Of a DNA stretch of 37,041 nucleotides, positions 9,279-32,712 are shown in pieces. The notes below the pieces were generated by a model. The model saw only the letters and a program-made list of their open reading frames with translations. It was not told the DNA's origin and made no database searches. Each line of letters opens with the position of its first letter. The stretch's first letter is position 1. The translations under genes were made by a program, and so were the position numbers. This DNA is from Nevskia sp. (GTDB lineage: Bacteria > Pseudomonadota > Gammaproteobacteria > Nevskiales > Nevskiaceae): assembly GCA_016779605.1 (NCBI GenBank), contig JADHNH010000026.1:1-37041 (forward strand). Direction: 5' to 3'.

Positions 9279-9370
9279 GGGAATCGAGAATGGGGAATCG
9301 GGAATCGTTGAAAACCGCCGCAACGGCGGCTTTTGCTTCTACGGCTGCCGATTCCCGAATCCCGATTCCC
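9279..9370. repeat. Inverted heptamer element A (argJ-secA intergenic)
   Basis: The left arm is four tandem 7-mers: GGGAATC 9279-9285, GAGAATG 9286-9292, GGGAATC 9293-9299 and GGGAATC 9300-9306. The right arm has three units in inverse orientation: gattccc 9350-9356, gaatccc 9357-9363 and gattccc 9364-9370. The 43-base core holds the secA terminator hairpin. Same architecture as elements B, E and F. Confidence 0.8.
9311..9334 (-). terminator. Intrinsic terminator of secA (symmetrical)
   Basis: Stem 9315-9320 / 9324-9329 (ccgccg/cggcgg, loop caa) is flanked by aaaa at 9311-9314 and tttt at 9331-9334, so it reads as a terminator on either strand. It lies about 45 bases after the secA stop codon and inside the core of element A. 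Confidence 0.75.
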
Positions 9371-9379
9371 GGCGGCTAG

Positions 9380-12145
9380 CTAGGCCAGACGGCCATGGCA
9401 CTGCTTGTATTTCTTGCCGGAGCCGCAAGGACAGGGGTCGTTGCGTCCCACCTTGGGCATCTCGCGCACGAAGGTTTCCGGCCGCGCGGCGGCGGCCGGA
9501 GCCGGCGGCAGCGGCCTTGCGGCCGGCGCTGCTGCGGCGGCGGGAGCGGACGGCTGGGCCGGCGCGGGCGCTTCCTGCGCCGCCGCCGCGGTCTCGGCCT
9601 CGGCGTGCTGGAACTGCATCGGCCGCGGACGGCGCCGCGCTTCTTCGATGGCGGCGATCTCGTCCTCCGACAGGATCTGCAGGCGTGCCAGATTCGAGAT
9701 CACCGCGTGCTTGAAGCGCGCCAGCACCTCGTTGAACATGTTGAAGGCTTCGCGCTTGTACTCCTGCTTGGGGTCCTTCTGCGCGTAGCCGCGCAGGTGG
9801 ATGCCCTGCCGCAGGTAGTCGATCGCCGCCAGGTGCTCGCGCCAGAACTGGTCGAGGATCTGCAGCGTGATGACCTTCTCGGCGTGCTCCATCGACGCCG
9901 GGTTGCGCTGCCGCTTGTCGGCGTAGGCGGCGCCGAGCGCCGCCAGGATCTTGCCGCGCAACGCCTTGTCGTCCAGCTCGCGGTCCTGCTCCAGCCACTG
10001 GCGCAGCGGCAGCTTGAGGTCGAAGTCGCGCTCCAGCGACTCCTCCAGGCCCTGCAGGTTCCACATCTCTTCCGGCGTCTGCGCCGGCACGTAGGCGTCG
10101 GCCACCGCGTTGACCACGTCGGCGCGGATGTCCTCCAGCAGCGGCGAGATGTCGGCGGCGGTCATCAGCTCGTCGCGCAGCTCGTAGATCGCCTTGCGCT
10201 GGTCGTTGGCGACGTTGTCGTAGTCCAGCAGGTTCTTGCGGATGTCGAAGTTGTGCGCCTCGACCTTGCGCTGCGCGGTTTCGATGGCGTTGCTGACCAT
10301 GCGGTGCTCCAGCGCCTCGCCCTCCTGCATGCCCAGCTTGAGCAGCAGGGCGCGCATGCGCGGCGGCGTGAAGATGCGCATCAGCGTGTCGTCGAGCGAC
10401 AGGTAGAAGCGCGTGGCACCGGGGTCGCCCTGGCGGCCGGAGCGGCCGCGCAGCTGGTTGTCGATGCGCCGCGACTCGTGCCGCTCGGAGCCGATCACGT
10501 AGAGGCCGCCGGCCGCCACCACCTGCTCGTGCCGCTGCTTCCAGGCCGCGCGCGCCTGCTCGCGCAGCGCCTGCTCGGCTTCCGGGATCCTGGCCAGCTC
10601 GGCCTCGAGGTTGCCGCCGAGCACGATGTCGGTGCCGCGGCCGGCCATGTTGGTGGCGATGGTCACCGCGCCCGGCTGGCCGGCCTGCGCCACGATCTCG
10701 GCCTCGCGCTCGTGCTGCTTGGCGTTGAGCACCTCGTGGCGGATGTTGCGGCCCTTGAGCAGGCCCGACAGCAGCTCGGAGGTCTCGATCGACGCGGTGC
10801 CCACCAGCACCGGCTGGCCGCGGCCGTTGGCGTCGATGATGTCCTTGATGATGGCGTCGAACTTTTCCTTGGCGGTGCCGTAGACCAGGTCGCCGCGGTC
10901 GTCGCGGATCATCGGCTGGTTGGTCGGTATGACCACCACTTCCAGGTTGTAGATGTTCTGGAACTCGTAGGCCTCGGTGTCGGCCGTGCCGGTCATGCCG
11001 GCGAGCTTGCCGTAGAGCCGGAAGTAGTTCTGGAAGGTGATCGAGGCCAGCGTCTGGTTTTCCTGCTGGATCGGCACGCCTTCCTTGGCCTCCACCGCCT
11101 GGTGCAGGCCGTCGGACCAGCGCCGGCCGATCATCATGCGGCCGGTGAACTCGTCGATGATGATCACCTGGCCGTTGCGCACGATGTACTCGACGTCGCG
11201 CTTGTACAGGTGGTGCGCGCGCAGCAGCGCGTTCAAGTGGTGCACCAGCACGATGCGGCCGGCGTCGTACAGGCTTTCGTCTTCGCCCAGCAGGCCGGCC
11301 GAGCGCAGCAGGTTCTCGACCTTTTCGTGGCCGGCTTCCGACAGGTGCACCTGCTTGCTCTTTTCCTCGACGAAGAAATCGCCGGCGCCCTCCTCGTCCT
11401 TCTGCGGCTGCAGGCGCGGCACCAGCGCGTTGAGCGTGCGCCACAACTCGGGGTCGTCGTCGGTCGGGCCACTGATGATCAGCGGCGTGCGCGCCTCGTC
11501 CACCAGGATCGAGTCGACTTCGTCGACGATGGCGTAGGCGTGCCCGCGCTGCACCTTGTCGGCCGGCGTGAAGGCCAGGTTGTCGCGCAGGTAGTCGAAG
11601 CCCAGCTCGTTGTTGGTGGCGTAGGTGATGTCGGCGGCGTAGGCCTCGCGCTTCTCCGGCGGCGACTGGCCCGGCACCACCACGCCCACCGACAGGCCGA
11701 GGAAGCGGTGCACGCGGCCCATCCACTCGGCGTCGCGCCGCGCCAGGTAGTCGTTGACGGTGACGATGTGCACGCCCTTGCCGCCGAGCGCGTTGAGGTA
11801 GGCCGGCAGCGTCGCCACCAGGGTCTTGCCCTCGCCGGTGCGCATCTCGGAGATCTTGCCCTGGTGCAGCACCGCGCCGCCGATCAGCTGCACGTCGAAA
11901 TGGCGCATGCCGAGGGCGCGCCGCCCAGCCTCGCGCACCACGCCGAACGCCTCCGGCATCAGGCTGTCGAGGGTTTCGCCGTTGTTCAGTCGGTCGCGGA
12001 AAATGCCGGTCTGCGAGGCAAGGTCGGAATCGCTCATGCCCCGGTAGCGGTCTTCGAGTGCGTTGACCTGGGTGACCAGGCCTTGCAGCCGGCGCACCAG
12101 GCGCTGGTTGCGGCTGCCGAATATGCGCGTCAGTAGGGAAGCCAT
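9380..12145 (-). CDS. secA: Preprotein translocase ATPase SecA
   Basis: 921 residues, full length. SecA is the motor that pushes unfolded preproteins through SecYEG. Visible in order: Walker A region MRTGEGKT at 101-108, the [18 protein letters not shown]-type motif near 210, the [19 protein letters not shown] block of the second ATPase domain near 500, an Ala/Pro-rich linker (about 840-890), and a C-terminal zinc site with C905, C907, C916 and H917 that binds SecB and lipids. No secM-like gene lies upstream; the M23 peptidase gene takes that position. A possible -10 (CATAAT) on the minus strand corresponds to 12220-12225. A terminator lies inside element A downstream. Confidence 0.97.
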
Positions 12146-31439: not shown

Positions 31440-31759
31440 CACTGCTTTTGCTCCGGCGGCTTCGGCTCCGGCGGCGCGGCGACGATCTGGTAGTCCTGCG
31501 GGTCGACCATGCCGAACTGGCTGCGCGCCAGCGTGTCGACGCGGCCCTGCTGCGCCAGGGTGGCCTGCTCCAGTTGCAGCTGCGCCGACTCCAGCAGCAG
31601 GCGGGCATGATCCTGCTGCATGTTGTCGAGCTGGGTGGTCAGGTTGCGGTTGTGCTGCTTGACCTGCACCACCGCCACCGCCGAAGCCATCACGGCCAGC
31701 GCCAGGATCAGCGGCAGCAGGGTGCCGCTGCGCGCCGCGCTGCGCGGCTGCGCGCTCAT
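31439..31759 (-). CDS. ftsL: Cell division protein FtsL
   Basis: 106 residues. A small bitopic protein with one membrane helix (about 14-33) followed by a periplasmic coiled coil (about 36-75, heptad-spaced Leu/Gln), then a Pro-rich end. FtsL joins FtsB and FtsQ and signals to FtsWI. The sequence is poorly conserved in this family, so the call rests on size, topology and its fixed place between rsmH and ftsI. It overlaps rsmH (ATGA) and ftsI (TGATG). Confidence 0.92.
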   Translation of the reverse strand: MSAQPRSAARSGTLLPLILALAVMASAVAVVQVKQHNRNLTTQLDNMQQDHARLLLESAQLQLEQATLAQQGRVDTLARSQFGMVDPQDYQIVAAPPEPKPPEQKQ

Positions 31760-32712
31760 TGCACGCGCTCCGCAACGCGCAGCACCGCGCTGCGCGCGCG
31801 CGGGTTGGCGGCCAGCTCCGCCTCGGTCGGGAAAGCGCGCAGAATGCGCTTGAGAGGCGAGAGGGGAGAGGGGAGAGGCGCAAAAGCATCAGCACCGCGG
31901 GTTTTGCCGTTCCGCCTCTCCCCTCTCCCCTCTCCCCTCTCGACCCGTCCCTCGCGGATGAACCGCTTCACCATGCGGTCCTCCAGCGAGTGGAAGCTGA
32001 TCACCGCCAGCCGCCCGCCCGGCGCCAGCACGTCCGGCACCGCCGTCAGCGCCGCTGCCAGCGCGCCGAGCTCGTCGTTGATGAAGATGCGGATGGCCTG
32101 GAAGCTGCGCGTGGCCGGGTGGATGCCGCGGCTGCGCGGGCCCGGCACGGCGGCGATCAGCGCCGCAAGCTGGGCGGTGGTGGCGATCGGCGCCTGCGCG
32201 CGCGCGTCGACGATGCGGCGCGCGATGCGGCGGCTGTTGCGCTCCTCGCCGTAGCGCCACAGCACGTCGGCGATCTCGGCTTCGCCGGCCTGCGCCAGCC
32301 ATTGCGCCGCGGAGCGGCCGGACTGCGGGTCCATGCGCATGTCCAGCGCACCGTCCTGGCTGAAGCTGAAGCCGCGCGCGGCGTCGTCGAATTGCGGGCT
32401 GGAGACGCCGAGGTCCAGCAGCACGCCGTCGACCTTGCCGGCGATGCCGGCCGCCGCCGCGAACGCGCCCAGCTCGGCGAAATTGCGCCGGTGGAAGTGA
32501 AAGCCGGGGGTGTCGCCGAATTCGCGCTGCGCGGCGGCGCCGGCCTGCGGGTCGCGATCCAGGGCGTGCAGCTCGCCGCTGCCGCGCAGCGCCTGCAGGA
32601 TGGCGCGCGCATGGCCGCCGCGGCCGAAGGTGCCGTCCACGTAGGTGCCGCCGGGATGCACCGCGAGCCCGGCCAGTGCTTCCTCGAGCATCACCGGCCG
32701 GTGCGAATCCAT
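31756..32712 (-). CDS. rsmH: 16S rRNA (cytosine1402-N4)-methyltransferase RsmH with an in-frame repeat
   Basis: 318 residues. It N4-methylates C1402 of 16S rRNA. It starts HRPVMLEEAL, has the SAM-binding GTFGRGGHARAIL near residue 27, the LLDLGVSSPQFD segment, the inserted helical domain, ISFHSLEDRMVKRF, and the conserved end NPRARSAVLRVAER. Residues about 258-287, between FIRE-GRV and LKRILRAFPTEAEL, are encoded by a 90-base palindromic heptamer element and read as Arg/Gly/Glu-rich then Pro/Ser/Leu-rich sequence. That segment is variable in the family, so activity is probably kept. GAGG lies 4 bases before the ATG. A 138-base gap without a recognised gene or signal separates it from mraZ. 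Confidence 0.96.
   Translation of the reverse strand: MDSHRPVMLEEALAGLAVHPGGTYVDGTFGRGGHARAILQALRGSGELHALDRDPQAGAAAQREFGDTPGFHFHRRNFAELGAFAAAAGIAGKVDGVLLDLGVSSPQFDDAARGFSFSQDGALDMRMDPQSGRSAAQWLAQAGEAEIADVLWRYGEERNSRRIARRIVDARAQAPIATTAQLAALIAAVPGPRSRGIHPATRSFQAIRIFINDELGALAAALTAVPDVLAPGGRLAVISFHSLEDRMVKRFIREGRVERGEGRGERRNGKTRGADAFAPLPSPLSPLKRILRAFPTEAELAANPRARSAVLRVAERVQ
31852..31941. repeat. Inverted heptamer element F inside rsmH
   Basis: Left units: gagaggc 31852, gagaggg 31859, gagaggg 31866 and gagaggc 31873 (to 31879). Right units: gcctctc 31914, then ccctctc at 31921, 31928 and 31935 (to 31941). The 28-base arms are complementary at 27 of 28 positions. The 34-base core has an inner gcaaaa/ttttgc pair (31880-31885 / 31902-31907). 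Total length 90 bases, 30 codons, with no stop in the rsmH frame. Confidence 0.9.

Follow-up and report, generated by a model that had tools for sequence, protein, structure and literature searches.

The stretch of DNA analyzed here (the window) is a 37,041-nt contig (C18, 37 kb) from the genome of a Nevskia sp. (G000; 4.08 Mb in 188 contigs, 95% complete). It carries argJ, secA, an M23 peptidase gene, ftsW, murD, mraY, murE, a PBP/ftsI-type gene, and rsmH, together with two genes that we take, from the dcw gene order, to be murC and murB; these names, like nadD and hemW below, are presumed from gene order or sequence motifs. The FtsW protein of the window shares 76–85% identity with its counterparts in the eight best-matching loci (five named Nevskia and three otherwise), in keeping with a Nevskia-like member of Nevskiales. 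Distributed among these genes are four complete inverted tandem-heptamer elements, in which an array of seven-base units (the left arm) is followed by a core and then by an array of inverse units (the right arm), and two degraded sites.

Two of the complete elements have units of the GGGAATC type (family A). In the argJ–secA gap, a left arm of four units on the plus strand (GGGAATC, GAGAATG, GGGAATC, and GGGAATC; 9279–9306) precedes a 43-nt core (9307–9349) and a minus-strand right arm with three clear units (9350–9370), and the gap between secA and the M23 peptidase gene holds four plus-strand units (12236–12263), a 25-nt core (12264–12288), and four minus-strand units (12289–12316). The mraY–murD junction is occupied by a family B element, with AGTTTCC four times on the plus strand (25602–25629), a 35-nt core (25630–25664), and AGTTGCC four times on the minus strand (25665–25692); all four units of this right arm deviate from the left arm at one identical base. 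The fourth element, of family C, lies inside the rsmH reading frame and comprises four GAGAGGC or GAGAGGG units on the plus strand (31852–31879), a 34-nt core with the edges GCAAAAGC..GGTTTTGCC (31880–31913), and four units on the minus strand (31914–31941). A preliminary description of the window had listed these four sites (9279–9370, 12236–12316, 25601–25693, and 31852–31941) with the layout found here, and two more. At the first of the latter (19284–19318), a degenerate four-unit family A arm is present on the minus strand (19291–19318), but it stands alone in the murC–murB gap, without a pair; at the second (24745–24793), a four-unit family A arm on the minus strand (24766–24793) lies within the murD reading frame and faces only a single opposite unit (24745–24751).

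Chance is excluded as the origin of the inverted heptamer elements. An inverted-element detector finds the four complete elements in the window, whereas across 100 dinucleotide shuffles of it the average was 0.03 and no shuffle gave more than 1. Applied to the window and 40 unselected G000 stretches (544 kb together), the detector returned 21 elements at period 7, 4 of them from the window, compared with 0–6 at each of the periods 5, 6, and 8–12, and none in one shuffle; period-7 arrays numbered 40, compared with 1–4 in five first-order controls.

By our own grouping, 36 of these 40 arrays fall into three families that recur in G000, GGGAATC (A), AGTTTCC (B), and GAGAGGC (C). Genome-wide counts of three-unit matches, overlaps included, are 80, 36, and 84, respectively, with 0, 0, and 1 for the reversed patterns that served as controls. 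The heptamers do vary by site within the window, as had been noted, but they are not locus-specific, since the three families recur genome-wide; the GGnAnnn formula proposed for them accommodates A and B and, within C, the variant GAGAGGG when written as GGGAGAG, but not GAGAGGC. Across 18 genomes of the genus, G000 included, A occurs in 3, B in 8, and C in 8; in G014, the family A count (5 hits) is close to that of the reversed control (3), and family C appears in G005 and G006 mainly as GTGAGGC forms. Relatives add the words GTGAGAC (G013 and locus L004) and AGTGGYC (G002, G007, G012, and L021), and the units thus belong to families of differing abundance among relatives. At one G012 locus (L269:1281–1442), two AGTGGYC left arms follow one another, and a tandem GCTTTTCA octamer lies ahead of the right arm.

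Arms were catalogued in 61 stretches of G000 (893 kb of the 4.08 Mb, about one-fifth of the genome), 20 of which were picked for carrying A hits, so that family A is over-represented. The catalogue holds 42 pairs (29 A, 7 B, and 6 C) and 23 runs of at least two units without a detected partner; two-unit runs may be chance, and some of the others do have a weak partner. Four units is the mode in all three families: left and right arms have four in 19 and 21 of the 29 A pairs, in 4 and 4 of the 7 B pairs, and in 5 and 6 of the 6 C pairs. The same number was counted in 6 of 7 GTGAGAC arms and 12 of 17 AGTGGYC rows from relatives, at loci chosen for holding arrays, with at least three units required, some of them orthologous and one array counted twice. 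Outlier arms of 9, 12, and 20 units are also present.

Pairs of families A, B, and C share the consensus GTAAAAGC at the inner arm edge, with AAA in 44 of the 84 inner edges compared with about 4% at nearby positions; the A and T runs that had been assigned to the cores are therefore real and located at the inner edges of the arms. The outer edge carries a weaker AAGC-like motif (21 of 84 versus 8%), and GTGAGAC and AGTGGYC elements have similar edges as seen by eye. Among arms of at least three units lying within 250 bp of each other, family A gave 23 inward, 1 tandem, and 0 outward arrangements, and B and C gave 4 and 6 inward ones. In the two families tested, A and C, the two arms of a pair resemble each other no more than they resemble arms from other elements: in family A (23 of the 29 pairs), 23.17 of 28 positions match within pairs and 23.11 between pairs (p 0.40), and in family C p was 0.62 (n 6). 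Such independence is evidence against the copying of one arm from the other and against any selection on the arms of an element to pair.

Positions relative to genes were obtained for 37 of the 42 pairs with a purpose-made, simple codon-usage gene caller. The flanking genes are co-directional in 28, convergent in 8, and divergent in 1, compared with 481, 74, and 97 of 652 element-free gaps shorter than 600 nt. In 21 of the 37 pairs, only 3–13 nt separate the left gene from the start of the left arm, and in 24 the right arm stops 0–11 nt from the right gene; this closeness holds despite large differences in core length.

Core length ranges from 18 to 207 nt. A nested GTCATTCCGAGCGGAGCGAGG repeat occurs in three element cores, and a subfamily of C has a core that is nearly identical at C61, C109, and C160. 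The C8 core resembles it, and G016 holds two more distant relatives; such sharing within the C subfamily is what whole-element copying would be expected to leave. A dispersed repeat, GTCATTCCGAGCGGAGCGAGGAATCT, was seen inside three elements (in the cores at L126, L129, and L167) and elsewhere in the sample. The C-subfamily core also contains a TTGAC(A) stretch resembling a promoter −35 box (L118:3616, L262, L263, L167:19235, L264, and L265); tRNA promoters were considered as the cause of the shared core and discarded, with no tRNA in the six loci searched. The small hairpin described in many cores proved not to be general, in that z fell below −1.5 in 5 cores of the 37 and stayed above it in 32, compared with 10% below among 39 control pieces, and over half of the mean z of −0.56 is due to one nested repeat. 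A hairpin or intrinsic terminator formed by the core is thus not supported as a general feature, the cores having no general excess of stability over shuffles.

The window junctions were compared in 46 of 80 relative loci, and six further G000 elements wherever both flanks aligned in relatives, with elements judged by eye. Comparison of orthologous loci, as the preliminary description had proposed, did yield junctions without an element. At mraY–murD, 6 of the 8 nearest loci have an overlapping stop-start and no spacer, compared with the 93-bp element of the window; among the 46 aligned loci, L021 has an AGTGGYC-type element. The murC–murB gap contains an A arm in the window, an A array in L001, and a GTGAGAC array in L004, and measures 10 nt in L002, L003, L005, L006, and L007. 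In the rsmH loop, in-frame family C arms are present in the window, L001, L004, and L007 and absent from L002, L003, L006, and L008 (L005 was not aligned). Separately, non-heptamer inserts of similar sequence were seen in Nevskia-related loci, in the mraY–murD gap of L016, L019, L031, and L046 and in the murD loop of L019 and L021.

Three of the six further junctions have no element in the aligned relatives: L118:6999 (0 of 9), L170:6633 (0 of 14), and L118:8039 (0 of 8, with another gene seemingly between in five, where gaps are 596–752 nt). At the other three, other species carry an element of another family. L118:3616 has an element in 4 of 10 relatives (GTGAGAC in G013; AGTGGYC-type in G002, G007, and G012), L170:4215 in 2 of 13 (an irregular GTGAGGA type in G013 and a decayed A in G002), and the nadD junction (L170:12729) in 5 of 13 (C in G016, B in G013, AGTGGYC in G012 and G007, and, in G005, a GTGAGGC element in decay; G004 is an unclear case). 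The alignments indicate that a single junction can hold different words in different genomes, and the claim of one architecture with a changing heptamer finds its clearest case at nadD, where A, B, C, and AGTGGYC occur in related genomes. At the same junction, G002 (L298) has an inverted octamer repeat, GCAAAGAC, instead of heptamers, possibly an eight-base relative.

Near nadD, G001 is 93.7% identical to G007 and 92.8% to G012. Its 44-nt spacer is homologous to that of G008, whereas in G007 and G012 an AGTGGYC element is found instead of both the spacer and the nadD ATG, with an in-frame TTG at the left-arm edge (frame by eye). The same contrast, between a native spacer in G001 and an element in G007 and G012, recurs at L118:3616, so that at two junctions an element stands where another genome keeps its native spacer. 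The idea that the old spacer lives on in G007 and G012 as the core of their elements was considered and rejected: no homology was detectable in the cores at nadD or in the core and the whole G012 element at L118:3616, and positive controls scored. By eye, stop codons or TTG starts, and in-frame N-terminal extensions, also seem to be supplied by elements, the cases being at window position 25690, at L266 (around position 1940), and at the nadD start in L304 and L305.

Based on these data, the reading that we favor, with roughly even confidence, is that the elements are small, non-autonomous, mobile inverted doublets that resemble REPINs (doublets of repetitive extragenic palindromic sequences, REPs) or miniature inverted-repeat transposable elements (MITEs) in size and layout. 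Recognition would fall on an end made of four heptamers (28 bp) with an AAAAGC-like motif at its border; the elements would be moved by an enzyme supplied in trans, and families would diverge as array and recognizer change together. Slippage may homogenize single arms, as suggested by the outlier lengths and by arms that are uniform yet unlike their partner. Closeness to both genes could arise through insertion with loss of the old spacer or through selection against extra spacer. The features shown by the sequences themselves are the dispersal of the families, the mostly four units per arm, the inward polarity, the element-free junctions in relatives, the different families at a junction between genomes, and the presence of an element instead of a native spacer at two junctions. 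MITEs and Rickettsia palindromic elements are likewise small inverted-repeat insertions, some of them in frame within genes; unlike them, the elements here have tandem-heptamer ends, a mostly unshared core, and no clear target duplication. Terminal inverted repeats are present as in MITEs, and an internal sequence shared between copies is lacking in most of the 42 pairs but found in the C subfamily (three or four places).

Several results weigh against such mobility. Apart from the nested repeat and the C subfamily, no core matched another among the 42 pairs, unlike in a self-copying MITE, and neither a gene between arms nor an autonomous partner with a transposase was seen in the 61 catalogued stretches, about one-fifth of the genome. 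Arm-level target-site duplication was not detected as a general feature, outer and inner edges being no more alike than permuted ones (75 arms, p 0.27); a possible duplicated stretch at mraY–murD was seen by eye only. Relatives differ in the length of the rsmH loop (27–123 nt), which in L009 and L012 reaches 114 nt without arms, and the murD loop has about the same length without heptamers in three of the nearest relatives, L001, L006, and L007 (it is shorter in L002, L003, L004, and L008), so that these two sites are no proof of insertion. The flank sums are those of ordinary gaps (co-directional p 0.98, convergent p 0.09), and closeness to both genes is therefore no proof of spacer replacement and only suggestive. 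The identities near nadD do not make G007 and G012 sisters relative to G001, and recombination may thus have contributed to the spacer contrast. Finally, murB of Solimonas (L009 and L012) contains two four-unit A arms about 230 bp apart, with the native coding DNA between them intact, and L010 is collinear with both there but without both arms; the sequence enclosed by arms also reads as host protein in murD of L012 and, by eye, in hemW of G002. The intact murB DNA implies that arms can arrive without a foreign core, and the case still supports a bracketing of native DNA by arms.

The elements are real, genome-wide, and partly known, family A being the GGGAATC repeat of Xanthomonas. The preliminary description knew of no named family with this layout, but Rehm et al. 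2015 (PMC4692102) had already reported GGGNATC heptamer repeats in Xanthomonas and GGGGAYT repeats in Nostoc. They count convergent GGGAATC pairs in two Xanthomonas genomes (70 cases with 186 repeats in one and 75 cases with 183 repeats in the other) and only a few inverted pairs in Nostoc, tie the Xanthomonas four-unit preference tentatively to quadruplexes, and report that (GGGAATC)3GGG folds in vitro and that transcripts begin or end more often at repeats capable of forming G-quadruplexes (G4). Common to both systems are the family A unit, the four-unit preference, the convergent inverted pairs, the intergenic bias, the nearness to gene ends, and a G-rich strand directed away from the gene (PMC4692102). 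In contrast, several unrelated heptamers, some without GG, follow one plan here, with an AAAAGC-like inner edge, elements in place of spacers, and differing families per junction; the other families, the shared edge, the family switch, and spacer replacement were not seen in the portions of PMC4692102 examined or in searches limited to open-licence papers. Arrays of at least two tandem units including one GGGAATC are formed by family A and not by B, C, GTGAGAC, or AGTGGYC. A strict inner-edge pattern matched G000 alone among 369 genomes of the class, as did an exact (GGGAATC)3 pattern, also strict, among 203 genomes (both sets including G000, though not necessarily Xanthomonas). Cyanobacterial STRR heptanucleotide repeats share the seven-base tandem units between genes. 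They differ in their pairing, inverted pairs being few in Nostoc (PMC4692102).

The first alternative, drawn from the Xanthomonas work, is that these are ordinary G-rich simple repeats, lengthened by slippage during replication and retained for the quadruplex that four G-tracts can form (PMC4692102). The identity of family A with the repeat that folds in vitro and its reported four-unit preference argue for it, and the arrays of 9, 12, and 20 units point to slippage. However, although GTGAGAC arms mostly have four units, none of the 7 has four GG tracts by sequence and 4 of the 7 printed arms have no GG at all, so that quadruplexes cannot account for the number across all families; GGG is also absent from the consensus units of B, C, and AGTGGYC, and slippage at a site leaves recurrent families and element-free junctions unexplained. 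We regard this explanation as unlikely.

Similarly doubtful is a role as bidirectional terminators or mRNA-end structures under selection, in which the heptamers form a stem and the AAAAGC..GCTTTT edges lie beside stop codons. The gene orientations around the 37 placed pairs, the A and T runs at the inner edges, and the reported frequency of transcript starts and stops at G4-capable repeats (PMC4692102) are in its favor. Yet one element lies between mraY and murD in the cell-wall cluster and another inside the rsmH frame, the cores show no unusual degree of structure, the two arms of a pair do not covary, and most aligned orthologous junctions have no element.

A junction-directed replacement of spacers appears unlikely to us as well. 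Here, an enzyme with a changeable short template or recognizer would write four heptamers inward from each edge of a gap, each lineage could receive a different word at the same junction, and the DNA between would be native or filler. Such writing would explain the fixed number, the polarity, the unrelated cores, the independent partner arms, and the arms around native murB.

The preliminary description had pointed to a RAYT (REP-associated tyrosine transposase) or a reverse transcriptase as a possible accompanying gene. No RVT_1 match was found in G000 (95% complete), and a RAYT-like gene does exist, but with a palindrome of its own: the one Y1_Tnp match, weak and just over the curated cut-off (E 1.6e-4), lies at L131 (G000:C149, about 41531–41884) between GTAG-headed palindromes. 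The searched stretches contain just two copies of the exact head GTAGGATGCGG, both at this gene, and its 3.4-kb locus, the only such locus examined, holds no heptamer array. REPINs and bacterial interspersed mosaic elements (BIMEs) with their RAYTs are likewise short, intergenic, non-autonomous inverted doublets with a variable middle; the arms here are tandem rather than palindromic, have no conserved tetranucleotide head such as GTAG or CGTC, and do not flank the RAYT-like gene, which accompanies a different REP. That the elements are unusual REPs of a REP/RAYT system, mobilized by its Y1 transposase, is suggested by the inverted doublets, many of them of a REPIN-like 75–120 bp, and by Y1_Tnp matches in 15 of the 18 genus genomes, G000 included. 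Gene and elements do not co-occur, however: G002 (84% complete) has 11 C hits and no Y1_Tnp match, and G001 has a Y1_Tnp match and no A, B, or C hit. The RAYT was rejected as mobilizer on its flanks and on genome distribution, and this alternative is very unlikely. Least credible of all is the hairpin-templated local copying of one arm from the other proposed in the preliminary description, for although neighboring arms are nearly always inverted, template switching predicts both polarities and near-identical partners, neither of which is seen in families A and C, and the window B element pairs four AGTTTCC units with four of AGTTGCC. Overall, the observation reported in the preliminary description holds in the main and is confirmed in part, and its interpretation is supported in part.

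The G-quadruplex repeat described in Xanthomonas in 2015 seems to belong to a modular set whose members differ in their word but keep a common plan of four units, an inward orientation, AAAAGC-like edges, and the framing of gene gaps. The four-unit rule is separated from quadruplex folding, and the origin of bacterial heptamer repeats becomes testable by comparing junctions between close strains. More generally, the data suggest that the elements may replace whole spacers and supply stop and start codons.

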